Source: Candidatus Acidiferrales bacterium (GTDB taxonomy: Bacteria > Bacteroidota > Ignavibacteria > Kryptoniales > JAKASW01). From it: a stretch of 55,490 nt of DNA. The notes under the pieces are model-generated. The model did no database searches, was not told the origin of the DNA, and saw nothing but the letters and a program-made list of their open reading frames with translations. How positions within the stretch are numbered: the first letter of the stretch is position 1; each line of letters begins with the position of its first letter. The DNA is taken from the NCBI GenBank assembly GCA_035515795.1, contig DATJAY010000036.1:1-55490 (forward strand), given 5' to 3'. A program made the position numbers and the translations under genes. This document shows positions 11,935 through 50,939 of this stretch, one piece after another.

Positions 11935-12837
11935 ATGGTTGCGGTTGTCAGGGAACAATCGGATGCAGGCAGGCCTGATAGGTCGGGAAGCCTGTTCGAA
12001 CTTCTGCGTCAGGAACTAAGCCTCAGGAACTACTCGCACAAGACATTTTCGGCATACAGAAGTTGTCTGAGGAATTTTGTGAATTTTTTTTCGCCGAAGA
12101 ATCCGCGCGAACTGAATGAGAGTGATATTCGCAGGTATTTATTATACCTCATCGAGCAGAAACATCTTTCAATATCGAGTATTAACCAGGTATTCAACGC
12201 AATCAGGTTTTTGTACGTAGATCTGTACCAGCAATCGTTCAAGGTCGGTTCAATCCCAAGACCGCTTAGATATAGAAAACTGCCGACGGTTCTGAGTGAG
12301 GAAGAAGTTCTTCGAATTCTTGATTCCGTGCGAAACATCAAGCACAGATCGATTCTGAGCATAATATATTCAGGTGGCCTCCGTGTGGGCGAGGCGGTAA
12401 AATTGAGGGTTTCCGACATAGACAGCAAGAGGATGTTGATTCGCGTATGCGGGGCGAAGGGAAGGAAGGATCGGTACACGCTTCTTTCGGATGAGACACT
12501 TGAGCTGCTGCGGGATTACTTCAAGAAATACAGGCCGAAGGAATTTTTGTTCGAGGGAGCGAATGGGCGGAAGCATTATTCAGAGCGAAGCGTTGAATCG
12601 ATCTTTGCAGATGCTAAAGCGGCTGCTCAAATAAGGAAGGAAGTCACGGTACACTCGCTGAGGCATGCATTTGCGACACATCTTCTGGAGTTCGGGACAG
12701 ACCTGAGGTACATTCAAGAGTTACTTGGGCACGCGAGCAGCAAGACCACGGAGATTTACACGCATGTTACACATAGTAAGCTGGGCAGGATAATGAGTCC
12801 GCTGGATCGTGCCCGGAGGAAGATAAAGGAGAAATAA
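11935..12837 (+). CDS. XerC/XerD-like tyrosine recombinase, candidate cassette integrase
   Basis: 300 residues. Residues about 20-105 form the core-binding SAM-like domain (LFELLRQELSLRNYSHKT...); residues 115-290 form the catalytic domain. All active-site residues are visible: R150 (SGGLRVGEA), K175 (GAKGRKDR), H240 and R243 (HSLRHAFATH), H266 (LLGHASSKTT) and nucleophile Y275 (IYTHV). Only about 60 residues separate the lysine and HxxR motifs, so the extra alpha-helical insertion that marks integron integrases (IntI) is absent; yet the tail IMSPLDRARR resembles the IntI ending 'RSPLD'. It lies 57 bases upstream of the first cassette core site and reads toward the cassettes, whereas most intI genes read away. 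The first 20 residues (GC-rich, with a bit of palindrome) look like an added extension. Likely role: strand exchange between attI-like and attC-like sites; a Xer housekeeping role is the main alternative. Confidence 0.9.
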   Translation: MVAVVREQSDAGRPDRSGSLFELLRQELSLRNYSHKTFSAYRSCLRNFVNFFSPKNPRELNESDIRRYLLYLIEQKHLSISSINQVFNAIRFLYVDLYQQSFKVGSIPRPLRYRKLPTVLSEEEVLRILDSVRNIKHRSILSIIYSGGLRVGEAVKLRVSDIDSKRMLIRVCGAKGRKDRYTLLSDETLELLRDYFKKYRPKEFLFEGANGRKHYSERSVESIFADAKAAAQIRKEVTVHSLRHAFATHLLEFGTDLRYIQELLGHASSKTTEIYTHVTHSKLGRIMSPLDRARRKIKEK

Positions 12838-35455: not shown

Positions 35456-35531
<76 letters not shown>

Positions 35532-35540
35532 AATTCGCGG

Positions 35541-35891
35541 GTTTTAGTCAGGGTGGTTGAGACGTAGTTGACTTTCTGCAGTGCATTATGGCACAAATGA
35601 CTTTCACGAACCTCTCCTACATTATGCTGTTAGACCATCAGCTTTCTAAGCCGGGGGTTGCATGTTCGAGTCACGCACGGCGCGCCGATTTTGATGGTTC
35701 ACGAAAGGCTGCGGTATTTTCTGGTTACGCTTTTATTCTTGCGATATTATAAGAGGATACAGAGGGGTCGGCCTTCCGCCAGCGGTTTGTACACGATCAC
35801 CAACTTATCATTGGTACATAGTATGGGGCGGGTCACAGTGACCAGTCGTTATGAAGCAGAGGATATCCGTTCCAACCATGTTGTTTCCACT
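35541..35891. other. Gene-poor start of the tRNA-Phe island
   Basis: About 350 bases. It holds a degenerate tRNA-Arg-like fragment (35621-35690) and short frames with no domain or ribosome site. A 100-residue frame at 35658-35960 overlaps that fragment and the end of the next minus-strand gene and is not accepted as a gene. Confidence 0.5.
35621..35690 (+). pseudogene. Degenerate tRNA-Arg (UCU)-like fragment
   Basis: TCAGCTTTCTAAGCCGG has an anticodon-loop-like TTTCTAA with TCT in the anticodon place, and GGGTTGCATGTTCGAGTCAC resembles the variable loop and T-arm of tRNA-Arg(TCT). The D-arm GCTGTTAGACC is weak, both stems have a mismatch, and no 5' acceptor strand pairs with the 3' end ACGGCGC. 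It is a remnant at best. Confidence 0.4.
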
Positions 35892-36431
35892 TCATTTTGG
35901 TTTGCGGCTTTGACGAGTCGATCCCTTCGGTTGAAGTCTTCCGACGGTATTCGTGAGTGAATCAAGCGTTGATGTGACTTTTGCTAATGCGGCTGACATT
36001 ACATTGATCGATGACATTAATCTCTTGTCGTCAATTGCAATGCTGTCGACCCTTCCAGACAATATCCGGACCTGTTCTGCTAAATCACCAATGTGTGAAC
36101 CTTGAGTTTCGATGATGCCCATTTTATCCTGAGAAAGGTGAAGTTCAAAACGAAGCTCACTGATCCACTTATCATACTTATCAGGGTACAGTGCGTCATT
36201 AAGTAATACTGTATCCGGAGCAAAGTCTTTTTCAAGCCTATCAATATCGGCACTGACCGCTCCACATTCCTGAACAGTTGCGGCCTTCTTGATTGATTCA
36301 CTTATGTCATTGCACTTTGACTCGAACGATTCTACAATTGAGTAGTCCAATTTGACTTGAGCCGTACCCATGGAAACAAAAGCAAACGTGACACCACAAA
36401 TAACGCTCAATGCACTCGCGAGATATCTCAT
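35892..36431 (-). CDS. Secreted coiled-coil protein of unknown function
   Basis: 179 residues. The signal peptide MRYLASALSVICGVTFAFVSMGTAQ is followed by helical, charged sequence. The second half (VRILSGRVDSIAIDD..., LAKVTSTLDSLTNTVGRLQ) has heptad-like hydrophobic spacing, suggesting a coiled coil. No family is recognised. The ATG overlaps the stop of the upstream lipoprotein gene (ATGA), so the two are coupled. Both are inside the tRNA-Phe island. Confidence 0.65.
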   Translation of the reverse strand: MRYLASALSVICGVTFAFVSMGTAQVKLDYSIVESFESKCNDISESIKKAATVQECGAVSADIDRLEKDFAPDTVLLNDALYPDKYDKWISELRFELHLSQDKMGIIETQGSHIGDLAEQVRILSGRVDSIAIDDKRLMSSINVMSAALAKVTSTLDSLTNTVGRLQPKGSTRQSRKPK

Positions 36432-36916
36432 TTCGTATTCTCCTTCTTGCCTCCATCTTTTGTAAGCATGATCGGTTTGTCGCGGCCGTCGACTAATTCA
36501 ATGAAAAGGGTCCTTTGATTAAATCCAGGAGACAAAAGCCCATCTTCTGAAACCGCTATTTTATTTTCGAGTACAAGACAACCCTCAGCCTGTCGGAACA
36601 CATATACGTTTTTGAACTGTGGCCCGGTAAGGTAATAATACCCTTGTACATCTCGAATGATATCGATCAAACGACCGCTGACATTGACGGAGTCATTTGT
36701 TTCTTCATACAGCAGGGGTTTGACATTGAAAGAAATGCGGTAACGATCTTCTTGTATCATACCACCCGCATCGACCTTAAGCTCATTTTCGATGGGCCAC
36801 GAAAAGTTCGCGGACTCAAGTGTCAGTGAAGAACACCCGGCCGCTAATAATGAAGACAGGCTAGTCACGAATACCACAACATGCCCTTTCAAGTAATTAT
36901 CCCATATTTGGATCAT
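36428..36916 (-). CDS. Lipoprotein of unknown function
   Basis: 162 residues from ATG 36916, chosen because AAAGGA lies upstream and the lipoprotein signal peptide (MIQIWDNYLKGHVVVFVTSLSSLLAAGC) then starts correctly; the frame to 37093 would bury it. The mature part is beta-rich (YRISFNVKPLLYEETNDSVNVSGRLIDIIRD). No family is recognised. First gene of a two-gene unit with the coiled-coil protein. Confidence 0.68.
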   Translation of the reverse strand: MIQIWDNYLKGHVVVFVTSLSSLLAAGCSSLTLESANFSWPIENELKVDAGGMIQEDRYRISFNVKPLLYEETNDSVNVSGRLIDIIRDVQGYYYLTGPQFKNVYVFRQAEGCLVLENKIAVSEDGLLSPGFNQRTLFIELVDGRDKPIMLTKDGGKKENTK

Positions 36917-37225
36917 ACTCGTTCCTTTGATTTTGTAGAACAAAAAGCTGTGATCTTGTAAAAGAAATGTAGGCAGTGTTAAAGAAGGATGCAAGTGAAA
37001 TTGAGAATCGGCCCCAAGATCAGGATGCCTTCCCCTAACAATGAGAAGACAATTGGCTTTTTCATGGTGATCTGCCCCCAATTGATGCACCAATGATAAG
37101 CTAGTGATTCTGTGTCGGTGAAAATATTAAATTAACACCGAATCACTTCTTGGGGGAATAGGTCAAAGATAAGAACAAGCATGTAGACTTGTGAAACATC
37201 TTATCAGTTTTGATCGTAATGTTGA

Positions 37226-37834
37226 ATGAATAACGTGAAGAGAATCTTGGCTTTTGTGATTACGGCGTTCATGCATTTATCAATGTCGCCTGCAACTGGT
37301 CAGATGGCAGCGCCACCGGCCGCAATTTCAACGCAGAGCAAGAATGAAGCAGTGGCCATGCGGGTGTTTGAAGAGATACTTAATCAAGGAAAATTCGGCG
37401 TTGCAGATGAAATTTATGCAAAGGATTTCGTCAATCACGGGCTGCACAGGGTTGCTGGATTGGAAGAGGATCAGGCGGCAGCTCGCTGGGAGAAGAAGGC
37501 TGTGCCTGATCTTACAATGACGGTGGATCTGATTTATGCGGATAGTGATCTGGTCACGGTCGTGTGGACAGCGCGGGGCACGAACACCGCTGCTGCAGAC
37601 GGAATACCTGCGACAGGTGCAAAACTCGAATTACGAGGTATCACAGTGTGGCGTATTGTCGATGGGAAAATTCGTGAAGAATGGACTTCATACGATCGAT
37701 TACGAATCATAAATCAAGTGGTGTCGCACTTGAAGTGGCTCCTGATAGGTGTTCTTCTTGCGTTACCAATTCTGATTTTCATAACCGTCAGATTCATCCG
37801 AAGCAAGCGGCTTGCCCGTGGTCTTCAAGTCTGA
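37226..37834 (+). CDS. SnoaL-like protein with signal peptide and C-terminal membrane helix
   Basis: 202 residues. Signal peptide to about residue 25 (ending SPATGQ), then a SnoaL-like alpha+beta domain (residues 42-155): VFEEILNQGKFGVADEIYAKDFVNHG, LTMTVDLIYADSDLVTVVWTARGTN, GITVWRIVDGKIREEWTSYD. The last 45 residues contain a membrane helix (LLIGVLLALPILIFITVRFI) and a basic tail. SnoaL-fold proteins include polyketide cyclases and many uncharacterised proteins; an exported, membrane-anchored form is unusual. It lies inside the tRNA-Phe island, on the opposite strand to the other island genes. Confidence 0.75.
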   Translation: MNNVKRILAFVITAFMHLSMSPATGQMAAPPAAISTQSKNEAVAMRVFEEILNQGKFGVADEIYAKDFVNHGLHRVAGLEEDQAAARWEKKAVPDLTMTVDLIYADSDLVTVVWTARGTNTAAADGIPATGAKLELRGITVWRIVDGKIREEWTSYDRLRIINQVVSHLKWLLIGVLLALPILIFITVRFIRSKRLARGLQV

Positions 37835-37908
37835 TCCTTCGTCTCCTGATTTACTATTCTAGGGTCCGGCACTTTTTTCGTAGACATGCCACCTTCTTAG
37901 GCGAGGAA

Positions 37909-37937
37909 AATTCTGCCCCTGTCCGCCAAATTCGCGG
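37909..37937 (+). repeat. Right att-like repeat, partial copy of the tRNA-Phe 3' end
   Basis: AATTCTGCCCCTGTCCGCCA plus AATTCGCGG, 27 of 29 bases identical to 35512-35540. There is no tRNA 5' part here, so it is a displaced copy of the tRNA end. Confidence 0.75.
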
Positions 37938-38201: not shown

Positions 38202-39500
38202 TTACTTCATCAGCAGCATCTTCCTTGTCGAAATGTAAGTCCCACATCTCAACTGATAAAAATACATTCCGCTTGCAACTCGTGTGCCTTCGAAAGTAAC
38301 CTTGTATTGCCCGACGGTCTGATTTGCGCTGACGAGAGTCCGGACCTCGCGTCCTAACGCGTCGTACACCGTCAGGGTCACCATCCCATCGGCCGGAACA
38401 GTATAGCTAATGACTGTGGTCGGATTAAATGGGTTAGGATAATTCTGGGAAAGGGAAAACTTACCGGGCATCGCTTGTTGGGATTTCTTCCTGATGTCCG
38501 TCACTTTCGCCATCATCGCGCTAATTGGCAAACTCCAAATCTCTCCGTTCGACGAACCGGCAAATAGCTTGGAGCCGTTTTCCACAAAGCAATAAATGTA
38601 TCCGTCAGTTAATCCTGTATCGATCGCGGTCCAAGATGTACCGTTATCCAAAGAGACAAAAACTCCCTGCCCTGACGTGCCAACAAACAGATCAGGATTA
38701 AGAATAACAAAGGTGTTAATGTACGTCGTCGTCAATCCCGAGTCTCTCAAACTCCAACTGAATCCGTCGTCATTGCTAAAGTACACCCCTTCCGTATTCC
38801 CCATGTAGACATTTGGACTATCGACCAGAATGTTGTAAACAAACAAATTATTTATTCCTAGATTGCTCTGAGTCCAGCTCTGACCATAATCATCCGAATA
38901 AAAGATTCCGTCCCCCCATGTCCCTGCAAAAATCCGTTTCCCATCAGATGCAATCGTGCGGACATATGAATTTGTCAACCCGTTATTGGCCTCGACCCAG
39001 GAGTCTCCGCTGTCCGACGACATGTAGATGCCGCCTCCCCATGTTCCTGCAAATACGACCGAGTCAATCCTGGCAAAGGTATAAATATTCGTGTCCGCCA
39101 GAGAACTGTCGGCTTTCTTCCAGTTTGTACCCTGATCCGTTGAAATGTAAACGCCGCTTCCCGACCCGTGCATTCCGTAAGTGGCGTTAGCAATGTTCCC
39201 ATAGCATCCGACATACAACATACCGCCTGTCGCAAGGATCGAAGTGATGTCGGAGGTTGTCAATCCGGAATCTATACAAACCCAAGTGTTCCCGTTGTCG
39301 CTGGACTTGTAGACATTACCGCCGAGAGTCCCTGCAAAAACGTTCATGCTGTCTGTAGCCAGACAACTCACTCGACCTGGCAGGGCGCCATGGCCGTAAG
39401 GTGGATCAGGGAGCACTGTCTTTGTCCATTGTGCGAACACAGTCCGGGGAAAAAATGACGCGACACACAAAAGAATCGAAAGGAAAAAATACTTTTTCAT
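38202..39500 (-). CDS. Secreted beta-propeller (BNR/Ycf48-like) protein with T9SS sorting domain
   Basis: 432 residues from ATG 39500 (signal peptide MKKYFFLSILLCVASFFPRTVFAQ). Six to seven similar repeats of about 45 residues follow, each with an S-x-D-x-G-x-T/S-W turn (for example SSDNGNTWVCIDSGL, STDQGTNWKKADSSL, SSDSGDSWVEANNGL), the Asp-box pattern of sialidase and photosystem-assembly propellers. The C-terminal 85 residues are a type A T9SS domain starting LSQNYPNPFNPTT and ending STRKMLLMK, so it should be exported to the surface and processed by the type IX system. No catalytic sialidase residues were seen. It is last in the gene block. Confidence 0.88.
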   Translation of the reverse strand: MKKYFFLSILLCVASFFPRTVFAQWTKTVLPDPPYGHGALPGRVSCLATDSMNVFAGTLGGNVYKSSDNGNTWVCIDSGLTTSDITSILATGGMLYVGCYGNIANATYGMHGSGSGVYISTDQGTNWKKADSSLADTNIYTFARIDSVVFAGTWGGGIYMSSDSGDSWVEANNGLTNSYVRTIASDGKRIFAGTWGDGIFYSDDYGQSWTQSNLGINNLFVYNILVDSPNVYMGNTEGVYFSNDDGFSWSLRDSGLTTTYINTFVILNPDLFVGTSGQGVFVSLDNGTSWTAIDTGLTDGYIYCFVENGSKLFAGSSNGEIWSLPISAMMAKVTDIRKKSQQAMPGKFSLSQNYPNPFNPTTVISYTVPADGMVTLTVYDALGREVRTLVSANQTVGQYKVTFEGTRVASGMYFYQLRCGTYISTRKMLLMK

Positions 39501-39555
39501 TTCATCATCCAAGTTTCTTTTGATACGATTGTAAACATCTCATATCACCGTTCAG

Positions 39556-40596
39556 TCAAAAGCTGATCCCGAGACTAAATTGCTGCACATATGTCAGCCT
39601 GCCGAAATCTTGATAAGCATAGTCAAAGGAAAACGCAACATTACCCATGAGGGCGTGTTTTAAACCGAAGCCAAGTGTAAACGATTCTTCGGAATCTCTC
39701 AGAAAAAGGGACTTGTATCCGCCTCTGATCGCAATCAGATTGTCAAAAACATATTCAGCCCCGACATTCACGCTCTCATAATTGTCGTTCGGATGGATCG
39801 CATCAACATCCAGTGTCAATTGATGCATATCAGTGGAGATGGGACTGTACGCCAGACCAACTCGAAAATTCAGCGGAAGCGACCACGCATCTGTCCCGAG
39901 GTAAGCGGGGATCTTGCCGTTATTTCCGGTCGTATTAACATCAGGATCATAAGTAACCAAAAGGGATTGACCTTGCATTTGCATTTTCGTCCCAAAATTC
40001 GATATAGACATTCCCAGTACGATTCCATCAAAAGGTGTTTTGTAAAGGATCCCCAGATCCATTGCAAAGCCGGTCGCGCTTGCCTCCCAGATGGATTGGT
40101 AGATAATTTTGGGATTGAATCCTATGGCAAAGTTGTCGGTAAGGTTTATCGCATAGCCCAGACTAAAGGCGATGTCCGTAGCCGTAAACAATTGCCCTGT
40201 GCCATTCGGATTATCGACGGTGGTGACTTTCATGTCACCGTAATCCGACGCGATAAAACTAAACCCCGCAGTTCCCATTCCACCCAGGTTATAAGAAGCC
40301 GCGAGATAGTTGTAGGCAACGCTTGCCAACCAGTTCGTATGGTCGAAGATGACGTCGATGCCATCCATTTTCGCCAATCCTGCCGGGTTCCAATAGAATG
40401 CACTCAAGTCGTTGTCGACCGCAACAAACGCGCCACCCATAGAAGCGGCTCTTGCACCTTGACCAATCTCAAGAAACGAAGCGGCAGTGGTTCCTCTTTT
40501 TGAAACGTTTGAAATGAAATCACTCTGGCAAAAAGCAGTCGAAGAAATCAGGATTACCATCAACAATTCAACCGTCTTTACAATTTTCATCTTCAT
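39556..40596 (-). CDS. PorV/PorQ-family outer-membrane protein
   Basis: 346 residues. Signal peptide (to STAFCQ), then TAASFLEIGQGARAASMGGAFVAVDNDLSAFYWNPAGLA, the hallmark opening of the PorV/PorQ (UPF0164, FadL-like barrel) family, followed by beta-barrel strands to a terminal FSLGISF. PorV is the outer-membrane shuttle that carries T9SS substrates to the sortase; PorQ is a related factor. It stands among several T9SS-tagged proteins, so a role in their delivery is likely; which member it is cannot be told from sequence. Confidence 0.85.
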   Translation of the reverse strand: MKMKIVKTVELLMVILISSTAFCQSDFISNVSKRGTTAASFLEIGQGARAASMGGAFVAVDNDLSAFYWNPAGLAKMDGIDVIFDHTNWLASVAYNYLAASYNLGGMGTAGFSFIASDYGDMKVTTVDNPNGTGQLFTATDIAFSLGYAINLTDNFAIGFNPKIIYQSIWEASATGFAMDLGILYKTPFDGIVLGMSISNFGTKMQMQGQSLLVTYDPDVNTTGNNGKIPAYLGTDAWSLPLNFRVGLAYSPISTDMHQLTLDVDAIHPNDNYESVNVGAEYVFDNLIAIRGGYKSLFLRDSEESFTLGFGLKHALMGNVAFSFDYAYQDFGRLTYVQQFSLGISF

Positions 40597-40602
40597 TCTC
40601 CG

Positions 40603-43600
40603 CTATTTTATGATGGCAAATTTGCCGATGTAATTGCCAATTCCGGGTGCATCCACATGAAAGAGATACACACCATAGGCGATATCCATTCCATCGTCGG
40701 AGACTAAGTCCCACGTCGTCGCGCCGCCATTGTTCAAGTTTGAATCATCTTTGCGTAGAGTCTTCACCAGCGCACCCGCAATCGTATATATCCTGATTGT
40801 GCATTTTGCCGGAAGATTTATGAAGCTTATCTGTCGTGTGCCGCGGCCGGTAGGATAAAGGGATCTCGGTTCCCAGGGGGCCGCTGCGATGTAAGGATTC
40901 GGGACGACGGAGATGTTGGACAGCGACTTGTTGGCCACAGTGTTATTTACCGACATCGCCTTTGTCGTGAAACTAAAATAGTCGCCGTTGGCAAAGGGCC
41001 TCTTCGTATGAATCATGAACTTGTCTCCCGCCTGAGGATAAACTGGAGCAATCGCGGGATTCATGGGTCCCTGATAATGGATTTCCCAAGTTCGTACCGT
41101 GGTGCTTGGCGCCTCGAGCTGTGTCATGATTATGTCGTCTCCGAGAGTCAGCGAGTGTGAACCGTCATTATCAATTATAATGGTCGCAACTTTCTGGCCA
41201 CTGCTCAGATCCGTGATCAGGTAATTGACCGGAATATTTACGGTCGATGATTTAACCGTGTCGACCGGGTGGTCGTAAAACTCGATCTGATAATCCGTAG
41301 GCCACGCAACGCCACCGCTGGGATATCTGATAACGGCAAGGTTTAAATTGCTCTTGCTGCCATACCACCCGGTTGATGAATCGTTCACCGAAACCATGAC
41401 GTCGTTGTTGAAAGAAAAAACCATTCCGTCGAAAGGAGCGCTGTAGACGGTGCTGCCAAAGACTGTCGCATCGACATTTCTCTGCAGAGTATCTACCATG
41501 CCGCTGTCGCTTCTGGTAATAAGATATGACGTCGTCGTATAGTTCGGAACCGTTCCCTGCGCAGTGTAAATGATCTGGTATTGGGCCCCATCGTATATCG
41601 CGCCTGGATTCAAAACCTGCACACTAATCGAGCCTGTTCCCAGGCCATTGGCGACCCTATCCAGGTTCCCAACCACCTGAGGCGGAACGTATCCCGCGAC
41701 TGGCGCATTCGGAGTAACCACAGCACAATTCTGGTCCACAAAAGTTATGTTGCCCGAATAATCCTGCGTGATGATCTTCGAGCACTCAGTAGGCTGCAAA
41801 CCAGTAGGTACTCCATTGACTACGTCATAGGCTGAATCACCGATTGAATAAGAGCACACCGCGTAAAAGTAAGTTCTCCCATTCTCGACTGTAGTATCCA
41901 CATATGAGTGCTGTAAACCACTGTTGCTGCCTCTCCAGAAACGCGCGCCATTTATTCCGACCGGATCGGGGCCGTATAATGAATCTACTAGATCAAATTG
42001 GGCAATCGGTTTGTAATAGGTCGGTTCACCTTGAGAGTCTGTTATCAACTTATCATCTTCGAATTGGGGTTCTTCGCTTCTATATACAGTATATCCTTCA
42101 AAAGCTTTTCTATAACCTTGCCGCGGGTCGTTGTTCTGATCGCCGAGAAACTGATCCCTGAATTGTTCGGCAATATTATCCCAATACAAATAGACTCTCC
42201 TGTCTCCTGCGACGGCATGCACAGTTGGCTTATAAGGCGGCTTGGTGAAATTGTAATTTGCATTATAGATTGCTTGAACAGTCCGTTTATGAAACAGCAG
42301 TTGATCGAGGTCGTTCCCCATAATCAATGCTATGGAGAATCTTTCTCTCAGACCCTTTCCGAGAATGAATGGACCAGAAGCAAAGACCATCTGAATATTG
42401 GTGTTTGCTACTGTAGTATCCACGAAACCATTATTCATAGACTTCCACATCACATTGTCATTCTTCGGCCACATACCGTTCGCTGATTTATCCGCAAGAG
42501 TTCCCAGAGTTACCGACGTCAGTCCAATCTGGTCAGATTCGTCTTTGTCCGTAGCGTCGAAGTGCGGCTCGCCGTGCGTGGGTAGTCCATCACCTTCTCC
42601 AACATCGGGACCTGTATAACCGGGATCCCACGGACCCAATCCATCGGCACCAACATCATCATTCAGGGGTTCATCCGAGTCCCATGTCCCGTTTCCGTTT
42701 AGATCAGTGTATGGCACCCAATTATGATTGTTGTCGATGTTATCGTCTCTTCGCTCATCGATCATGCCATCATGGTCATTGTCCACACCGTCGAAAGGAT
42801 TCCCCGGACTCTCGAGATAAGCAAATCCCAAGTAGCCGGTTTTGTAGTTACCGGGATTTCCTATGCCCGATGGGGCCCACGTGTATGCTATATTTAACAA
42901 GGTGTTATAATAAGCGCTGTTTGCCGGCTCGGTCGAATTTGCTCCTCCTACACCTGGATCGGCATAAAAACCAAACGCAGTGCTGTCATAAGTATGATCT
43001 GATATGTTGACGATGTCATAATGCCAGAAGATGACGTCCTCTGCCAAGACATGGGACCACTGGAAACCACGCACTTCTACGCGCAAGCCCAAACCGCCTC
43101 TCTCGGAATCGCTTGCTACAGGATAATAATTGAACGGAGGTAATGTAAATTTTTTGTCCTGGGCGTCATCCATGACAAAGAACGTTTCGAAATCCGCATT
43201 GGAAACACCTTTGCCAAAATAACCATACCACTTTCCATTCCACGATGGGTCCAGCCCAAGCGCCGCCGGCCAAATGGACGGCAATGAGTTATTGTAGTTG
43301 CCGTTGGCATCTACAGCCGGGCTTGTGCCGCTTGGATTTGCATAGCCCGGTACAGGTTCCAATCCCCACGGCGTACCTGTGACAGGATCCTGACTGTATT
43401 CTTCCCTGTAAGCCGAGACGAGTGGCGTAATCCTCTGACCAGCGGGAGTTGTAACTCTAGCACCAATGAGTACGGCGGTTCCATCTAAATAGTTATGACC
43501 GGTGCCGGCCGGCCATTCGATCGATGGAGCAAATTCCCAATATCCAATTTCGCCATAATTATAGTACAACGTGTTTATTCTGTTTCCCACCATTATCCCC

Positions 43601-43743
43601 TGTCTTCGATATCGATAATTCCCCAATGAATCGGCGCGATAAAGCGGCACACGCGGATCCTCCTGTCCGATATCAATCTGTGCAGCAGCAAAATCGGTAA
43701 ATGCTCCAACCAAGAGCAGTGCGGTTAACAATCTAGACTTCAT
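40603..43743 (-). CDS. Large secreted protein with Fn3-like and FlgD-like C-terminal domains
   Basis: 1,046 residues from ATG 43743 (GGGAGAAC upstream; signal peptide MKSRLLTALLLVGAFTDFAAAQ). The N-terminal 450 residues have no recognised fold but contain calcium-binding-like D-x-D-x-D-G loops (DGVDNDHDGMIDERRDDNID; DLNGNGTWDSDE). Around residues 500-680 is an Fn3-like region (VYLYWDNIAE ... YFYAVCSYSIGDSAYDVVNG). The last 100 residues (ISVVPNPYIAAAPWEPR ... YGVYLFHVDAPG) are a FlgD-like Ig fold related to T9SS sorting domains. Proteins of this layout commonly follow a TonB receptor in this lineage. Their role is unknown, probably surface or cell-envelope associated. Confidence 0.75.
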   Translation of the reverse strand: MKSRLLTALLLVGAFTDFAAAQIDIGQEDPRVPLYRADSLGNYRYRRQGIMVGNRINTLYYNYGEIGYWEFAPSIEWPAGTGHNYLDGTAVLIGARVTTPAGQRITPLVSAYREEYSQDPVTGTPWGLEPVPGYANPSGTSPAVDANGNYNNSLPSIWPAALGLDPSWNGKWYGYFGKGVSNADFETFFVMDDAQDKKFTLPPFNYYPVASDSERGGLGLRVEVRGFQWSHVLAEDVIFWHYDIVNISDHTYDSTAFGFYADPGVGGANSTEPANSAYYNTLLNIAYTWAPSGIGNPGNYKTGYLGFAYLESPGNPFDGVDNDHDGMIDERRDDNIDNNHNWVPYTDLNGNGTWDSDEPLNDDVGADGLGPWDPGYTGPDVGEGDGLPTHGEPHFDATDKDESDQIGLTSVTLGTLADKSANGMWPKNDNVMWKSMNNGFVDTTVANTNIQMVFASGPFILGKGLRERFSIALIMGNDLDQLLFHKRTVQAIYNANYNFTKPPYKPTVHAVAGDRRVYLYWDNIAEQFRDQFLGDQNNDPRQGYRKAFEGYTVYRSEEPQFEDDKLITDSQGEPTYYKPIAQFDLVDSLYGPDPVGINGARFWRGSNSGLQHSYVDTTVENGRTYFYAVCSYSIGDSAYDVVNGVPTGLQPTECSKIITQDYSGNITFVDQNCAVVTPNAPVAGYVPPQVVGNLDRVANGLGTGSISVQVLNPGAIYDGAQYQIIYTAQGTVPNYTTTSYLITRSDSGMVDTLQRNVDATVFGSTVYSAPFDGMVFSFNNDVMVSVNDSSTGWYGSKSNLNLAVIRYPSGGVAWPTDYQIEFYDHPVDTVKSSTVNIPVNYLITDLSSGQKVATIIIDNDGSHSLTLGDDIIMTQLEAPSTTVRTWEIHYQGPMNPAIAPVYPQAGDKFMIHTKRPFANGDYFSFTTKAMSVNNTVANKSLSNISVVPNPYIAAAPWEPRSLYPTGRGTRQISFINLPAKCTIRIYTIAGALVKTLRKDDSNLNNGGATTWDLVSDDGMDIAYGVYLFHVDAPGIGNYIGKFAIIK

Positions 43744-43767
43744 TCTATGTTCTCCCAATCGATTTGT

Positions 43768-46509
43768 CTAAAAATCCAGGCTGCAGCCGATGCGAAGGGA
43801 ACGGGGGGCCGAGTAGCTTGATGGATCGTTTGTGTATTGCTGAAGAGTGTTAAGTCCTATAATTGTCCCCGCGGAAGTAATATCTTGAATGGGAAGGTCG
43901 TTGGCTCGCCCTGTATACGCGTTCACACCGTATTCGTTCTCTATGTCCAGCAGATTGTAAACCAGTAGAAAGAGATTCAAACCAATTCCTCCCACGTTAA
44001 AAGTTTTCTGAGCTCTCAGGTCAACATTGTAAGTAGGGGGTTTCATGCCATTATTGTCGAAGAGTATTCCCTGCGAAACCCGCACATCCTCGGTATACGG
44101 ATAGCCGGAGCCATAATTGAATATCAGTCCGACAGTCCAATCGGTAGCCGGTCCAACATCTATTTCGATGTTCAAGGTATTACGCTGATCCCAATCGAGT
44201 GGAACAAATATTTTGTTTGTCTCTATGGGAGGACTGCTTTGATTATTATAGAATACGGACATCGGGTCCGAAGCGTCTCCTTCCGCTAATTGAAATGTGT
44301 AATCCAACTTTGCGCTGAAGAAAGCTGAAAAATGTTTGTCGAGCGTGACTATGAAACCTTTCACGTTCGCATAATCCCTGTTTATGAACCGGGCATAGTT
44401 TACACCCTGGTATGTATTTATTATTTCCATGCCAAGCCAATTTCTTATGTCTCTGTCGTAGACCGTAAAATCCAAAGAGAGATCAGCTGCTAGAGCCTGT
44501 TGGAGTCCAATCTCATACATCACCGTCCTCTGAGGATTCAAATCAGGATTCCCCATTATGCTTGTCAGGCCGCCCGTTTCCAGAACCAACTCTCCGGGAT
44601 TATCATACAAGTTTGAGAAACTCGGGATCTGGAAGAAATGGCCATATGAGAAATGGATAATGCCTTTATCGGTAATGGGAAAAGATATGCCGAGCCGCGG
44701 ACTGACCTGCGTTTTCGCGGAGGCATTGACCATTTTACCAGCATTGGAGAAGTTTGGATCTCTCAATGGATTTTTCAGATCATATAAATATTTTGCGTTT
44801 GGCTTGAAGTAGTCGAAGCGCAATCCCGCGTTTATGATCATGATATCGTACTCAGCCTTGTCCTGAAAGTAAGCCGAAAACTGAATGGGGTACCTCGCAT
44901 AGAGCTGGTTGCCGGCCGGATCCTGACTGCTTATGCTTCCCAGTTGGAGATACATTGGTTTGTAAACAGAATCCAAGCCCGTCCCTGTAGCAGGACTTAT
45001 GAGAGTGTATTCATGGTCATAGAGTTTGTACCAATCAAGCTCAGCACCTACTCCAATCTTGTGATTTTTAGAAACTTGATCGTCAAGCTGCCATTTGACA
45101 ATGCTTTCAATCGTCTCTCTTTCATATCGTCCCGACTGCTGTCCACCCGACTGAAAAGTATAAGATGAAAGTGGAGAACCTTGTGCTGGATCGACATAAC
45201 GTGTATCATAAGGATCGGCGTAAACGTAGCCGCGATAGTCGTATCGATTCACGGCAAACTTAAGAGTCTGAAGGATGTCCGCCGAAGGGACATGACTAAT
45301 CTGAAAACTATGTATCCAATTATTCATATAGTTGTTCATGAGTCCATCCGGAGTCCATTTCCATGCCTCACTGAAATATTTGTTCCAATCATTATTATAA
45401 AACAAACTATACGAGAATTTTAATAAAAGAAGTGAGTAAGTCAGCTTCCCATTTATGGAATACATCCGGGACGGGTTCATCGGGACGTAAGTCGAATCAC
45501 CCGTATGCGGCATAATGTAAATTGGATTTCCGTTTTGGTCGAGAATGTCATTGCCGCTTGGATCAATCAATGGAAACGGTGACCTGTCAGAAGTGTTGTA
45601 TATTCTGGTTCCGTAAAGGTATCCGGGGTCATCATAATATCTCCCGGTTGCAAAAAAGGTAACTTCGGGGAGAATTACTGACGGACCGCTCAAAGTAAAT
45701 TCATAGTCTCTCGTCCTCAAGGTGGTTAACTTCCCAACGTCGGGAAAAAGATCGGTATGAGTTGTGACATAGTCCCCCGCATAAGCGGAGAGTGATCCAT
45801 GAAAGTTTTGTGTGCCGTCCTGCGTAACGATGTTTACGATGCCCGACATCACTTGACCGTACTCTGCGTTGAAAGTTCCACTAATAACCTCTATCTCTCT
45901 GATAGTCGAATTATCTACCTGTAGAGGCAGCGAGCCATTAAAGGGATCGGTCACCGGCAGTCCATCAACCAAATAGCCGACTTCATCAGAACGTCCACCC
46001 CTGAAATGGCCTCCGACCACTCCCGCCTGCAAACCGATTATCTGGCTCACACTTTCGACAGGCATCTTACTAATCTGGTCCGATGAAACCGTGACTGAGG
46101 TAGAGGTCAAATCCTTCTGGACGAGTGGCCGTTGCGCAGTTACGACAACCTCTTTGGAACTTATCGTCTCTTGATTCATTCTCATGTCTAGAGTAAAAGT
46201 CAAATCGATTTTGATAGGGACGCTCTTCACTACTACCTTCTGATATCCGACGGCGCTGATCACCACAGTGTAATCTCCAGGTGTAATGTAGTCGATGTAG
46301 TAGTACCCATTGACGTCAGTTGCAGCACCCATAGTGGTCCCTTGAAGAAGCACGGTCGCACCGACCACCGGCTCGCCGGTCTCAGCATCCGTTACCTTGC
46401 CTGCTAATTTCCCTGTAGTCCCGGCAAATGAACTGTCGTGGAGCACCGCCAAGAAAAATAACACAATTAATACCCCACGCAAATTCGTAAGAAAGCATCC
46501 TGTGTTCAT
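43768..46509 (-). CDS. TonB-dependent receptor with carboxypeptidase-regulatory domain
   Basis: 913 residues from ATG 46509 (AGGTG upstream). Signal peptide to about residue 30, then a carboxypeptidase-regulatory-like domain (GKLAGKVTDAETGEPVVGATVLLQGT, GYYYIDYITPGDYTVVISAVGYQ), a TonB-box-like VVVTAQRP, the plug domain (VSQIIGLQAGVVGGHFRGGRSDEVGYLVDGLPVTDPFNG ... EYGQVMSGIVNIVTQDG) and the long barrel ending SYSAPRSLRIGCSLDF. It should import a large substrate across the outer membrane. It lies between a CBM9-type secreted protein and a PorV-like gene, in a block with GH3, GH30 and a sugar symporter, so a glycan is the most likely substrate. No SusD lipoprotein follows it. Confidence 0.9.
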   Translation of the reverse strand: MNTGCFLTNLRGVLIVLFFLAVLHDSSFAGTTGKLAGKVTDAETGEPVVGATVLLQGTTMGAATDVNGYYYIDYITPGDYTVVISAVGYQKVVVKSVPIKIDLTFTLDMRMNQETISSKEVVVTAQRPLVQKDLTSTSVTVSSDQISKMPVESVSQIIGLQAGVVGGHFRGGRSDEVGYLVDGLPVTDPFNGSLPLQVDNSTIREIEVISGTFNAEYGQVMSGIVNIVTQDGTQNFHGSLSAYAGDYVTTHTDLFPDVGKLTTLRTRDYEFTLSGPSVILPEVTFFATGRYYDDPGYLYGTRIYNTSDRSPFPLIDPSGNDILDQNGNPIYIMPHTGDSTYVPMNPSRMYSINGKLTYSLLLLKFSYSLFYNNDWNKYFSEAWKWTPDGLMNNYMNNWIHSFQISHVPSADILQTLKFAVNRYDYRGYVYADPYDTRYVDPAQGSPLSSYTFQSGGQQSGRYERETIESIVKWQLDDQVSKNHKIGVGAELDWYKLYDHEYTLISPATGTGLDSVYKPMYLQLGSISSQDPAGNQLYARYPIQFSAYFQDKAEYDIMIINAGLRFDYFKPNAKYLYDLKNPLRDPNFSNAGKMVNASAKTQVSPRLGISFPITDKGIIHFSYGHFFQIPSFSNLYDNPGELVLETGGLTSIMGNPDLNPQRTVMYEIGLQQALAADLSLDFTVYDRDIRNWLGMEIINTYQGVNYARFINRDYANVKGFIVTLDKHFSAFFSAKLDYTFQLAEGDASDPMSVFYNNQSSPPIETNKIFVPLDWDQRNTLNIEIDVGPATDWTVGLIFNYGSGYPYTEDVRVSQGILFDNNGMKPPTYNVDLRAQKTFNVGGIGLNLFLLVYNLLDIENEYGVNAYTGRANDLPIQDITSAGTIIGLNTLQQYTNDPSSYSAPRSLRIGCSLDF

Positions 46510-46596
46510 TACACACCTATCATTACAATTACACATGATCATTTATCTACAACCATGAGAAAGTAAGAAACCAAAAGAACTCAAAGTATAACTCAT

Positions 46597-46629
46597 ACGG
46601 TCCGTCCCCACAACGGAGACGGACCGTAC
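46597..46629. promoter_or_regulatory. Perfect hairpin between the CBM9-protein gene and the TonB receptor gene
   Basis: TACGGTCCGTC (46597-46607) and GACGGACCGTA (46619-46629) form an 11-base-pair perfect stem with an 11-base loop. There is no T-run on either side, so it is not a standard terminator; it may be an RNA stability or processing element that separates expression of the two genes. Confidence 0.6.
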
Positions 46630-46642
46630 ATCGTGTCTGATT

Positions 46643-49237
46643 TCACTTAAGGAGAAGCATTTTCTTTACGTTTTCAAATGAACCAGACTTGATCCGATAA
46701 AAGTAGACGCCCGTCGAAAGTTTGGAAGCGTCGAGGATGACAGCGTGACTGCCAGCTGTCTGAATAGCGTTAACCAGCGTAACCACTTTTTGGCCCAGCA
46801 CGTTGTACACAGTCAGTGTAACTAAACCCGGCTTCATTATCGAATATTGAATTGTTGTGGTCGGGTTGAAAGGATTCGGATAATTTTGCAGCAAGGAATA
46901 TGTATTGGGTATCTGCCCGCCCTGCTTGACTCCGAGTGTCATCTTGTCTCCGATCCATGTGTATGACCAGACGGCGACGTTTTGATACGAATTACCATGA
47001 GCGAGACTTGAGTAATCGAGTTGCCCATTCCTTGACGTATTGCCTGAACTGACACTATTAATTTCCGCATCGAACGGAATCCTCGCACCAACTTGAGGAG
47101 CAAACACGCTGTCGGTGCCACTGTAACCGCCATTTCGTTTGTGTGCTATGTCGGTCCACGATATTCTCGCTTCGAAATTGTATCCATCAAGAGGATCGGG
47201 CACCAGTCTTTGTCCCCAATAGTAATTTTGACCCGGGGTTACTAGCGAATCCGTTCCTTTGTTATCGATTATCACACGATCTTCTGCAAATCTGAAATGA
47301 TAATCAGGTTCCGGGCCGCCTTCCAGGGCGCTATGCGGCATCCCGTGCCAGTTATAGAAACCAAGAAATATGTCCGTCGATGTGTTCAGCCAGGAAGACT
47401 GCGATGAGTTAAAGACAATGTTGTTTGTATTGATGTGACCTGCGATGTACAAATATGTCTTATCCATCGCAACATAAATGTCGCCGGAGCTTACAGTGTC
47501 GCTTGATATTATGCTGCCGGTGACAGGCGTCCCGCTGCCATCACTTACGTACAATCTGAAAGGTTCAATCCCGGCATTTTTCCATTCACTGATATCGCCA
47601 TCTGCTGCAAAGTTGAATTGCGAGCTCAATTTCCAGAGAGGAGAAATCGACGGGATACCCTTTGCCGTATTTGTAACCGCAGCACTGTATACTGCGGGTG
47701 TGCCAAGAAGGCCGTCGCTGCTTCTGCAAACAACGGCATAATAATAAGTAACCGATTGATCTGCCAGAGGAGCCAGAAGCAAGTGAGTGTATGAGTCGGT
47801 CCCATGCGCAACACCTGTGGCGGCAACATCAACGATAGAGGAATCAATATTCGTTATCGGTGAGGTCGAGAAGTAGACATTGTAAGTCTCACCGGTTTGT
47901 CCAGGGACGTCATTCCAGCTGATTATGTTCGAGTAATTCGATTTTGTCACCACAGCAATTCCGGTTGGCGCTATAGGAGGCACCGGATGCGGCGGGTTGC
48001 CCGTCCATATGTTTGATATATAAATGTTTTTTCCAGCAACACCGGCACCGTTCTCGCAAATGAATTGCAGGACCAGAACGCTGTCCGCATTGAAACCTGT
48101 GGTTCCATCCTGCGGCACAAAATTTCGCAGCGGATAAATGAATTGATGCCATTGGCCGTCGCCGTTAGGCTGGAATTTAGTGCTGACTTTCGAAACCGTC
48201 GATGTGCCATTCAATCTAGATTCAAACTGGACTCTCACGGTATCCGCGCCTGCATCCGATTTGTACATGAACTTCAGGCTGTCTACAGGCCAGCCGCCGG
48301 ACATATGAAATGGACCTCCGGCGCTCGCTCCTGCAAGCGGACCGATGTTGAAGCCTGCTCCATTCCATCCGGAAGCAGTGACCCAATGCAGCGAGTTCGT
48401 GTTCGCAACCGGACCATTCCCAGTTTCCAGACTGAAAGTGGAACCGCCCCAGGTGAACGTGGATTCACTATTTGGGAGACCAAGGCCATTGAAGAACGTG
48501 ATCGGAACTGGCCTGTTTCCGGTTCTGTCAAAGCCGGCATACTTGACCTCGATCGAATCCAAAGGCACATTGGTGTAACCGGTCGGTGGATTCGGAGTGA
48601 GAGTGGTGGTCGTTGTTACCATCACTATGTTCCACCCGACTATATTAGCTATGTCCAATTTATGATTATTCCATGTGAAGCCTCCCCAATTGTACGGAGC
48701 CTCAACAAAGCCGCTGTCGCCGGGAGCAACTGTACCACTTTGCGAATTGATCTCATGCAGAGGAATCTTAAGCTGGTACCAGCCCTTAACCACATCCAGA
48801 ACTGAATCGTTCTGATAGATGAAAGTTTCCAATGGATCTCCGGCATTATCTTGATCGACAAGCTGAATCCTGAACGACATGTACTGAGGGAATAACGGAG
48901 CTTTAATAATTTTCACCCAGAGTCTTAGTGTATCGCTCGAGCTAAAGTCCATATAATGTCCGGTGGGCAGTCTATAGATAAGTTGAGAGAAACTTCCCCA
49001 CGCATGCAGCGAATCAATCTTTGTCTTGATATCAAGCGACGCGGCAAAACCTGTGGGCTTGTCTACAGCATCTTGAGCCCAGACAAAAGAGCTATGGCCG
49101 CCCTCGACGTTTGCTGCCCACACAAAATTCGAATCTGCAGCAATATTGCTAAGGCTATCAATCATAGTTTCTTGGGCGTAAGCCGCGGAAGACCATGCAA
49201 TGACAGCAAAGAGAACGGGTAGAATGACCCTTTTCAC
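46643..49237 (-). CDS. Secreted glycan-binding protein: CBM-like, Fn3 and CBM9-like domains, T9SS-exported
   Basis: 864 residues. Signal peptide MKRVILPVLFAVIAWSSAAYAQ. Residues about 30-245 and 250-420 are two beta-sandwich modules of carbohydrate-binding type. About 425-520 is an Fn3 module (PTGIAVVTKSNYSNIISWNDVPGQTGETYNVYFS). About 535-770 (NFAADGDISEWKNAGIEPFRLY ... DKTYLYIAGHINTNNI ... FEARISWTDI) matches the CBM9/DOMON-like sugar-binding family. The end is a type A T9SS domain starting LLQNYPNPFNPTT. There is no catalytic module, so it probably binds polysaccharide at the cell surface, taking the place of SusD/SusE-like binding proteins. Confidence 0.8.
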   Translation of the reverse strand: MKRVILPVLFAVIAWSSAAYAQETMIDSLSNIAADSNFVWAANVEGGHSSFVWAQDAVDKPTGFAASLDIKTKIDSLHAWGSFSQLIYRLPTGHYMDFSSSDTLRLWVKIIKAPLFPQYMSFRIQLVDQDNAGDPLETFIYQNDSVLDVVKGWYQLKIPLHEINSQSGTVAPGDSGFVEAPYNWGGFTWNNHKLDIANIVGWNIVMVTTTTTLTPNPPTGYTNVPLDSIEVKYAGFDRTGNRPVPITFFNGLGLPNSESTFTWGGSTFSLETGNGPVANTNSLHWVTASGWNGAGFNIGPLAGASAGGPFHMSGGWPVDSLKFMYKSDAGADTVRVQFESRLNGTSTVSKVSTKFQPNGDGQWHQFIYPLRNFVPQDGTTGFNADSVLVLQFICENGAGVAGKNIYISNIWTGNPPHPVPPIAPTGIAVVTKSNYSNIISWNDVPGQTGETYNVYFSTSPITNIDSSIVDVAATGVAHGTDSYTHLLLAPLADQSVTYYYAVVCRSSDGLLGTPAVYSAAVTNTAKGIPSISPLWKLSSQFNFAADGDISEWKNAGIEPFRLYVSDGSGTPVTGSIISSDTVSSGDIYVAMDKTYLYIAGHINTNNIVFNSSQSSWLNTSTDIFLGFYNWHGMPHSALEGGPEPDYHFRFAEDRVIIDNKGTDSLVTPGQNYYWGQRLVPDPLDGYNFEARISWTDIAHKRNGGYSGTDSVFAPQVGARIPFDAEINSVSSGNTSRNGQLDYSSLAHGNSYQNVAVWSYTWIGDKMTLGVKQGGQIPNTYSLLQNYPNPFNPTTTIQYSIMKPGLVTLTVYNVLGQKVVTLVNAIQTAGSHAVILDASKLSTGVYFYRIKSGSFENVKKMLLLK

Positions 49238-49307
49238 ACTATCATCTCCTTTTTGTTTCGTTGAATGTTTACGGCTTGCATGTCCACTTCGGACACGGCC
49301 GATTTAC

Positions 49308-50939
49308 TTAGAACCAAATGCTCCATAATCCAGCAATTATCAGAAGGATTAGAATAGAAAACAAAGTACCAACTTTATAGGAATTCACAGTTACTTCACC
49401 AGCGGATGCAAAGTCCCCGCCGATTGTCAACCCTGGAATCTGGAATCTCAGCTTGTCCTCCAAAGCCTGATCAGACCTATATGCCAACAGACTGATCGAG
49501 ACGAAGACTACCGAGCTAAGCAAGAAAAGGAAAATGGAAAAGTGAAGAAAGTTTATGTTCACCATCGATACGAGTAATTCATTGTCCACCGATCCGGATT
49601 TGACAAGCAATTCGCTCACCAACCGGAGTAATCCGATGGCTTCTCCAATTACAAGAGTCCATATCGCGGCTGCGGAACTTCCTTTCCTTTTCATCACAAA
49701 AGCAAAAAGGAATACCGCCGCGATAGGCGGGCTTACAAATCCCTGAATACTCTGTAAAAACAAATACACCTGTGAACTGATTAACTTGACCAATGGAATA
49801 CTGAGGACTGCGATGACAACCATGAGAGTGGTGACAAGTCTGCCGGCTAAAACCAATTCCCTGTCCGTGGCTTCAGGGTGCTTCGGTTTATAGAAATCAT
49901 TCGTGACGAGAACGGCGGTTGAAGAAAAGATACTCGCCAGCGAAGACATGATTGCTGCAAGCAAACCCGCCACAACTATCCCTTTTATGCCGCTCGGCAG
50001 CAAACTGCTTGTCAGCAGAGTTGGATACGCCTGATCACCATTTACGCCAGGGAAGATTGCAGCTGCAAGGAGGCCTGGAAGAACAAGTATGAACAAGGGG
50101 AGCACTTTCAGCGATGCCGCAAAGAGAGAACCCAATCTCGCTTCGTTCAGATTTTTTGCCGAAAGAACCTTCTGAATGAAATATTGGTCCGTCAACCAAT
50201 ACCAGAACGCGATGATCGGAGCACCGAACAACACGCCGGTCCACGGGTAATCCGGATCGCTCTCGGGCTTGAACATATGGAAAAAATCAGGCGGCAATTT
50301 CTGCTGAAGGCCGGAAAATCCGCCTGCCGCATTTAAGCCGAAGACCGTCAATAGAACCGCACCCACGATAAGCACAATACCCTGGAACACGTTGGTTCTT
50401 ATGACGGCGTTTGCACCACCTAAGATTGAATACAAGCCTGTAAATAAAACGACGATCACCGCCGAAGCATACACATTCAAGCCAAACAATCTATTGAAGA
50501 GTATTCCGCCCGCAAAAAAAGTAACGGTAATCTTTGTAAATATGTACAAGACTATCGAGACCGCGGCAAAGGGTTTTCGCAATGACTTGCCAAATCTCTT
50601 TTCTAAAAATTCGGGAGTGGTCGCTACTCCAGACTTAAGATAAATAGGCACAACAACCCAACCCAAGAATATCAAGACAAAAATGGCCATCAACTCGAAT
50701 TGGCCCACTGCAAGCCCCCTTGTAGCTCCTGCACCGGCAAGTCCTATGAAGTGCTCGCTGGAAATGTTAGTCGCAAAGACAGACATCCCGATGGCAAACC
50801 AACCGACGTTTTTCCCCGCAAAGAAATAATCATTAAAGGTAGGCTCTCTCTTCCCCGAGTAGTACACCCCCATCGCTATTATGATCCCGAGGTACAGAAA
50901 CATCACTATGGTATCGGCAAACGTAAAATCAATCGACAA
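49308..50939 (-). CDS. Sodium:solute symporter (SSS family, SglT-like)
   Basis: 543 residues with about thirteen to fourteen transmembrane helices. The opening YFFAGKNVGWFAIGMSVFATNISSEHFIGLAGAGATRGLAVGQFE is the SSS first-helices signature with the sodium-site segment. PIIAFWYWLTDQYFIQKVLSAKN and AIMSSLASIFSSTAVLVTNDFY (sodium-2-type site, SS motif) are typical of vSGLT-like sugar transporters. It imports a monosaccharide across the inner membrane with sodium. Placed between GH30 and the CBM9-type gene, it would take up the glucose released by the glycosidases. Confidence 0.9.
   Translation of the reverse strand: MSIDFTFADTIVMFLYLGIIIAMGVYYSGKREPTFNDYFFAGKNVGWFAIGMSVFATNISSEHFIGLAGAGATRGLAVGQFELMAIFVLIFLGWVVVPIYLKSGVATTPEFLEKRFGKSLRKPFAAVSIVLYIFTKITVTFFAGGILFNRLFGLNVYASAVIVVLFTGLYSILGGANAVIRTNVFQGIVLIVGAVLLTVFGLNAAGGFSGLQQKLPPDFFHMFKPESDPDYPWTGVLFGAPIIAFWYWLTDQYFIQKVLSAKNLNEARLGSLFAASLKVLPLFILVLPGLLAAAIFPGVNGDQAYPTLLTSSLLPSGIKGIVVAGLLAAIMSSLASIFSSTAVLVTNDFYKPKHPEATDRELVLAGRLVTTLMVVIAVLSIPLVKLISSQVYLFLQSIQGFVSPPIAAVFLFAFVMKRKGSSAAAIWTLVIGEAIGLLRLVSELLVKSGSVDNELLVSMVNINFLHFSIFLFLLSSVVFVSISLLAYRSDQALEDKLRFQIPGLTIGGDFASAGEVTVNSYKVGTLFSILILLIIAGLWSIWF

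Follow-up and report, generated by a model that had tools for sequence, protein, structure and literature searches.

What is the 2.4-kb interval that separates an intact tRNA-Phe gene from a second, displaced copy of its own 3' end? The window analysed here, a stretch of 55,490 nt, is the entire contig C36 of a 4.08-Mb genome (designated as G000), and it carries a tRNA-Phe (GAA) gene with an encoded CCA end at 35456–35531 on the plus strand (ARAGORN and Rfam). Comparison of the repeats showed that the segment that begins in the T-loop and ends 9 nt beyond the CCA (35512–35540, plus strand) recurs in the same orientation at 37909–37937, at a spacing of 2397 nt. These copies are designated as the proximal (attL-like) and distal (attR-like) repeats, respectively, and the latter carries two substitutions relative to the tRNA copy. 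The repeat of 29 bases with 27 identities, as described by the first-pass annotation, was borne out, and its limits are sharp: only 9 of 56 positions upstream and 15 of 60 downstream are identical, which is at or below chance. Because identity ends this abruptly, the distal copy is not what is left of a decayed second tRNA gene, and the 9/56 identity upstream rules out a second tRNA-Phe gene that decayed gradually. The locus has the anatomy of a tRNA-gene island, being bounded by the intact tRNA on one side and, on the other, by a displaced 3' fragment that keeps its orientation.

The 29-mer is essentially unique in its surroundings. Its best other match in the 55-kb window, with both strands considered, is 18/29, and the 16-nt core AATTCCGCCCCTGTCC has only three sites with one mismatch or fewer in the whole of G000, namely the tRNA gene, the second copy and C35:298526. 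In addition, the genes of the interval are absent from the tRNA-Phe slot in all relatives in which the locus was recovered. The finding that would have contradicted the island reading, namely both repeats and the same genes occurring at this locus as part of the core genome of relatives, was looked for and did not occur. Both the repeat statistics and the missing genes leave next to no room for a chance repeat or a run of ordinary core genes.

The tRNA-Phe locus was recovered in 11 of 12 genomes of the same genus (G001–G012), the exception being G008. An S66 peptidase gene adjoins tRNA-Phe in nearly all of the 11 (in G004 the two lie on separate contigs), and the DNA past the tRNA gene differs in almost every genome. 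Intact tyrosine integrases identified with Pfam directly follow tRNA-Phe in G006, G007 and G010, with two convergent integrases in each of the latter two, and G005 retains a broken integrase, a C-terminal remnant, in the slot. An efflux-pump block that is 87% identical between G003 and G004 starts 661 nt from the tRNA-Phe start in one of these genomes and 3336 nt from it in the other. Toxin-antitoxin, restriction or AbiE-type genes occupy four of these slots. G004 encodes a SocA/Panacea protein there and G006 a type IIG restriction-methylase, G010 carries an AbiEi/AbiEii pair, and G011 combines an AAA ATPase with genes for HATPase and D12 methylase proteins. G007 possesses a displaced 48-nt copy of the 3' part of tRNA-Phe at C53:14803, and the DNA to its left (C53:929–14850) carries type I-C CRISPR-Cas genes as well as genes for an HTH protein and a large serine recombinase; the CRISPR and recombinase genes may share one island with tRNA-Phe, contigs C36 and C53 of that genome being unjoined in the assembly. 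In G009, 61-nt direct repeats at 117–177 and 2217–2277 from the tRNA-Phe start flank 2.0 kb and enclose a 644-aa ORF (no family assigned). These repeats resemble a 3' half of tRNA-Phe with its T-loop interrupted by a hairpin-like insertion, and one copy of the same type follows tRNA-Phe in G011. We considered whether GATGGAGTTTANCCCG, found in G009 and G011, is a genome-wide repeat and rejected this, as it is rare and tied to tRNA-Phe in both genomes; a match to GATGGAGTTTANCCCG at G004:C103 falls in unrelated sequence. Taken together, these genomes show that the DNA after tRNA-Phe serves the genus as a recurrent integration site rich in defence genes.

Comparison of this locus among relatives, which had been proposed in the first-pass annotation as a check, thus yielded the other inserts that were anticipated but not the empty sites. 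Neither an empty site nor the same insert was seen among the relatives, the nearest of which are ~65–69% identical at the neighbouring gene. Because the relatives are this diverged and none has an empty site, the insertion is not directly visible, and we infer it, as well as the type of recombinase and the order of events, from the anatomy of the locus and its counterparts.

The right-hand side of the locus raises the question of whether the gene order has been scrambled. The genes from 38202 on (38202–50939) encode a BNR/T9SS protein, a PorV-like protein, a TonB-dependent receptor, a transporter and others. This cluster is conserved in G001, G002, G005 and G012, where it is located on contigs other than the tRNA-Phe contig, and its left neighbour is different in each genome examined. 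The intergenic DNA right of 37938, compared in order to place the boundary, gave no significant similarity. Since the cluster is not on the tRNA-Phe contig in the relatives, a rearrangement may have taken place at the right-hand junction, and these genes are not necessarily the native right neighbour of tRNA-Phe. On the proximal side, the ~90 bp immediately inside the repeat are similar to the DNA flanking the tRNA in G002 (shuffle p=0.037), a likeness that would be unexpected if the flanking DNA were element-specific and that the simplest model appears to leave unexplained.

The 29-nt copy could accordingly be viewed as the product of a rearrangement or of a short duplication that was not site-specific, with the slot varying merely through general shuffling of gene order. 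Such a view would accommodate the different places of the right-hand cluster, the G002-like proximal flank, and the short tandem repeat of a tRNA-Arg 3' end with its flank in G007:C33. However, the copy begins in the T-loop and ends shortly past the 3' end, which is the standard geometry of att sites; integrases or their remnants occupy this very slot in four relatives; and a further, independent displaced copy in G007 is accompanied by other recombinase genes. We therefore regard rearrangement as unlikely and site-specific integration as the better account of the repeat.

The state of the tRNA 3' end bears on how many insertions occurred. CCA is encoded in the tRNA-Phe genes of G000, G006, G007 and G010, the last three of which are integrase-adjacent, and is not encoded in those of G001–G005, G009, G011 and G012 or in the displaced G007 copy. 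Most simply, CCA-bearing ends may have arrived with the elements. That both copies in G000 carry CCA is a hint of repeated insertion, while a single base change could have produced this state instead. In a rival view, the two repeats might delimit only a part of a larger, accreted island, whose outer end would lie beyond the contig and which would also include the DNA right of 37938. The presence of CCA on both copies when most genus members lack it would fit an earlier replacement of the 3' end, G009 offers an example of tandem att-like copies, and the contig stops at 55490. On the other hand, no third copy of the 16-nt core (one mismatch or fewer) was found on the contig, the right-hand genes form the cluster conserved in four relatives, and CCA is one base away from the G002 flank and may have arisen by chance. 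An accreted island of this kind is rather improbable.

The composition of the interval is only mildly deviant and does not clearly indicate a foreign origin: its GC content is 0.450 versus a window mean of 0.477 (percentile 5), and its tetranucleotide percentile is 83. As for its contents, a lipoprotein/coiled-coil pair, a SnoaL-like protein and a decayed tRNA-like fragment had been noted along with the lack of an integrase, and the ORFs, Pfam and Rfam confirmed all of these points.

The tRNA-like fragment (~35624–35684) scored 21.3 bits with Rfam, below the gathering score of 29 bits. By similarity to the intact gene of the same genome, it comprises the decayed 3' half of tRNA-Arg(TCT) at 35631–35683 on the plus strand and is 91% identical over 53 nt to tRNA-Arg(TCT) at G000:C32:357–431. 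Its start coincides with the tRNA position at which a displaced tRNA-Arg 3' copy at G000:C28:155–206 begins, and this shared start suggests that it derives from the att site of a tRNA-Arg element. The intact tRNA-Arg(TCT) is near one contig end of G000 (C32) and the displaced 3' copy near another (C28), and these sites are probably a second tRNA-targeted island of this genome. As a separate observation, in G007:C33 (4932–5405) the tRNA-Arg 3' end with ~30 nt of flank recurs shortly downstream, beside a palindrome.

The gene pair lies on the minus strand and consists of a truncated coiled-coil protein of 179 aa (35892–36431) and a lipoprotein-like gene (36428–36916), whose ORFs overlap by 4 nt; both assignments are based on ORFs and paralogue comparison. 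The pair's lipoprotein occurs once in 10 of the 12 relatives, away from the slot, and again in G000 at C35, and the core pair is mostly found in a common neighbourhood with aldo-keto reductase genes. The full-length coiled-coil paralogue at C35 has 428 aa, and the window protein stops after ~167 aligned residues. The window lipoprotein is 63% identical to its C35 paralogue and sits on the longest terminal branch of the tree (0.58 versus a median of 0.14), its position being unsure. As judged from these comparisons, the window pair is an extra, broken copy of the genus-type pair rather than novel cargo. The decay of the interval is thus directly visible.

Two copies of a dispersed repeat resembling an insertion-sequence end flank the pair, one at 35795–35835 on the minus strand (83% over 42 nt to a G002 repeat) and an inverted one at 37068–37113 on the plus strand (87% over 46 nt). 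The repeat has a sharp TGACCTGCCCCC end. It is present as solo copies in G000 (also at C16, C19 and C3) and in a longer, multicopy form in G002, with ~10 matches in the former and ~20 in the latter, many at contig ends. We rejected the inverted arrangement as a transposon, since both copies point their outer ends towards the pair and the surroundings of the other G000 copies revealed no transposase.

The third gene encodes a SnoaL-like protein (37226–37834, plus strand; Pfam E=1.9e-27) with a signal-like stretch at its N-terminus and a transmembrane-like stretch at its C-terminus. No match at E≤1e-15 was found in 19 other genomes of the order, and the closest relatives are Acidobacteriaceae proteins with 62–64% identity; the gene is foreign by distribution. 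No tRNA and no obvious mobile gene was found around these Acidobacteriaceae relatives.

Neither the ORF list nor a relic search of the interval revealed an integrase or its relic, and no integration or transfer genes were recognised in it. Likewise, Pfam and PADLOC detected no recognisable gene of an integrative and conjugative element (ICE) or IME, and a defence function of the three interval genes was rejected, PADLOC giving no match for any of them.

These contents also bear on whether the unit still moves. A remnant and a satellite dependent on an outside recombinase had both been offered in the first-pass annotation as explanations for the missing integrase; the truncation, the decay and the two repeat substitutions favour the remnant, while the interval contains nothing that resembles phage-satellite functions (its own integrase or genes for helper-dependent replication or packaging). 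A non-autonomous satellite that is mobilized from outside, for example by an integrase encoded at G000:C5, would explain the retention of both repeats, and the C5 protein (338 aa) indeed shares 41% identity with the integrase beside tRNA-Phe in G006. Nevertheless, the gene truncation, the decayed fragments and the mutated distal repeat speak against it; no second copy of the 2.4-kb unit was found in the rest of G000 or the 12 relatives; and the tRNA-Phe 3' core has no exact match in 2.9 million viral contigs. A living satellite is very unlikely, and we give equally little credence to excision and movement of the unit in trans by recombinases of other hotspot residents. With both repeats and no recombinase, the remnant has the anatomy of a cis-mobilizable element (CIME) that is probably no longer moving. 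Elsewhere in the window, a gene for a 300-aa tyrosine recombinase is located near groEL (11935–12837), and a paralogue of 414 aa (50% identical) is encoded at G000:C4, ~490 nt after tRNA-Leu(CAG).

Integration by a tyrosine recombinase had been proposed from the repeat itself. Site-specific integration is supported by the integrases in the relatives' slot and the displaced G007 copy, and a tyrosine enzyme is likely rather than certain, because a large serine recombinase gene is located close to the G007 copy and because islands with T-loop tmRNA targets are placed by a serine recombinase (PMC3146451).

Our preferred explanation, which we hold to be probable, is that the interval is an old, decayed and integrase-less island remnant, resembling a CIME, in a tRNA-Phe hotspot shared across the genus. 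As suggested by the anatomy and the integrases in the relatives' slot, a mobile element would have recombined into the 3' part of tRNA-Phe, its own copy of the 3' end restoring the tRNA gene and the displaced original end being left at 37909–37937. The integrase, the transfer or phage genes and most of the cargo would later have been lost, and patching by repeats and further insertions may have produced the present mosaic of the tRNA-Arg piece, the truncated pair and the SnoaL gene, which is intact and acquired.

Integration, decay to a CIME and possible accretion have been described as a three-step scenario (PMC5704250), and by analogy it may describe the course of the interval, here a candidate CIME. 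The interval shares with CIMEs the pair of att-like repeats at the 3' end of a tRNA gene, the lack of integrase and transfer genes and the decayed contents, but it is very small, includes no gene with recognisable descent from an ICE or IME, and has att sites that are putative. The closest worked example is the ssrA islands of Dehalococcoides, which are placed at T-loop tmRNA targets by a serine recombinase and of which 15 have no integration module (PMC3146451). Common to both are a hotspot after a single-copy RNA gene, strain-variable content, short direct 3'-end repeats starting in the T-loop, and members without an integration module. In contrast, the target is tmRNA there and tRNA-Phe here, many tandem repeats are present there and one pair here, and the serine recombinase there has its counterpart in tRNA-proximal tyrosine integrases of the relatives. 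The account of integration into tRNA genes by Williams (2002), as far as it is conveyed in PMC2647930, agrees in a repeat that begins in a tRNA loop and takes in the 3' end and in the restored tRNA; the interval differs in having no integrase whose subfamily could be matched to the T-loop start.

As an individual remnant, the interval is ordinary, and its value is as a pointer to the tRNA-Phe hotspot of the genus. Depending on the species, the cargo of this hotspot comprises restriction-modification, AbiE-type toxin-antitoxin, an AAA ATPase/methylase cluster and probably type I-C CRISPR-Cas, and looking after tRNA-Phe is a quick way of locating such genes in further genomes of the group.
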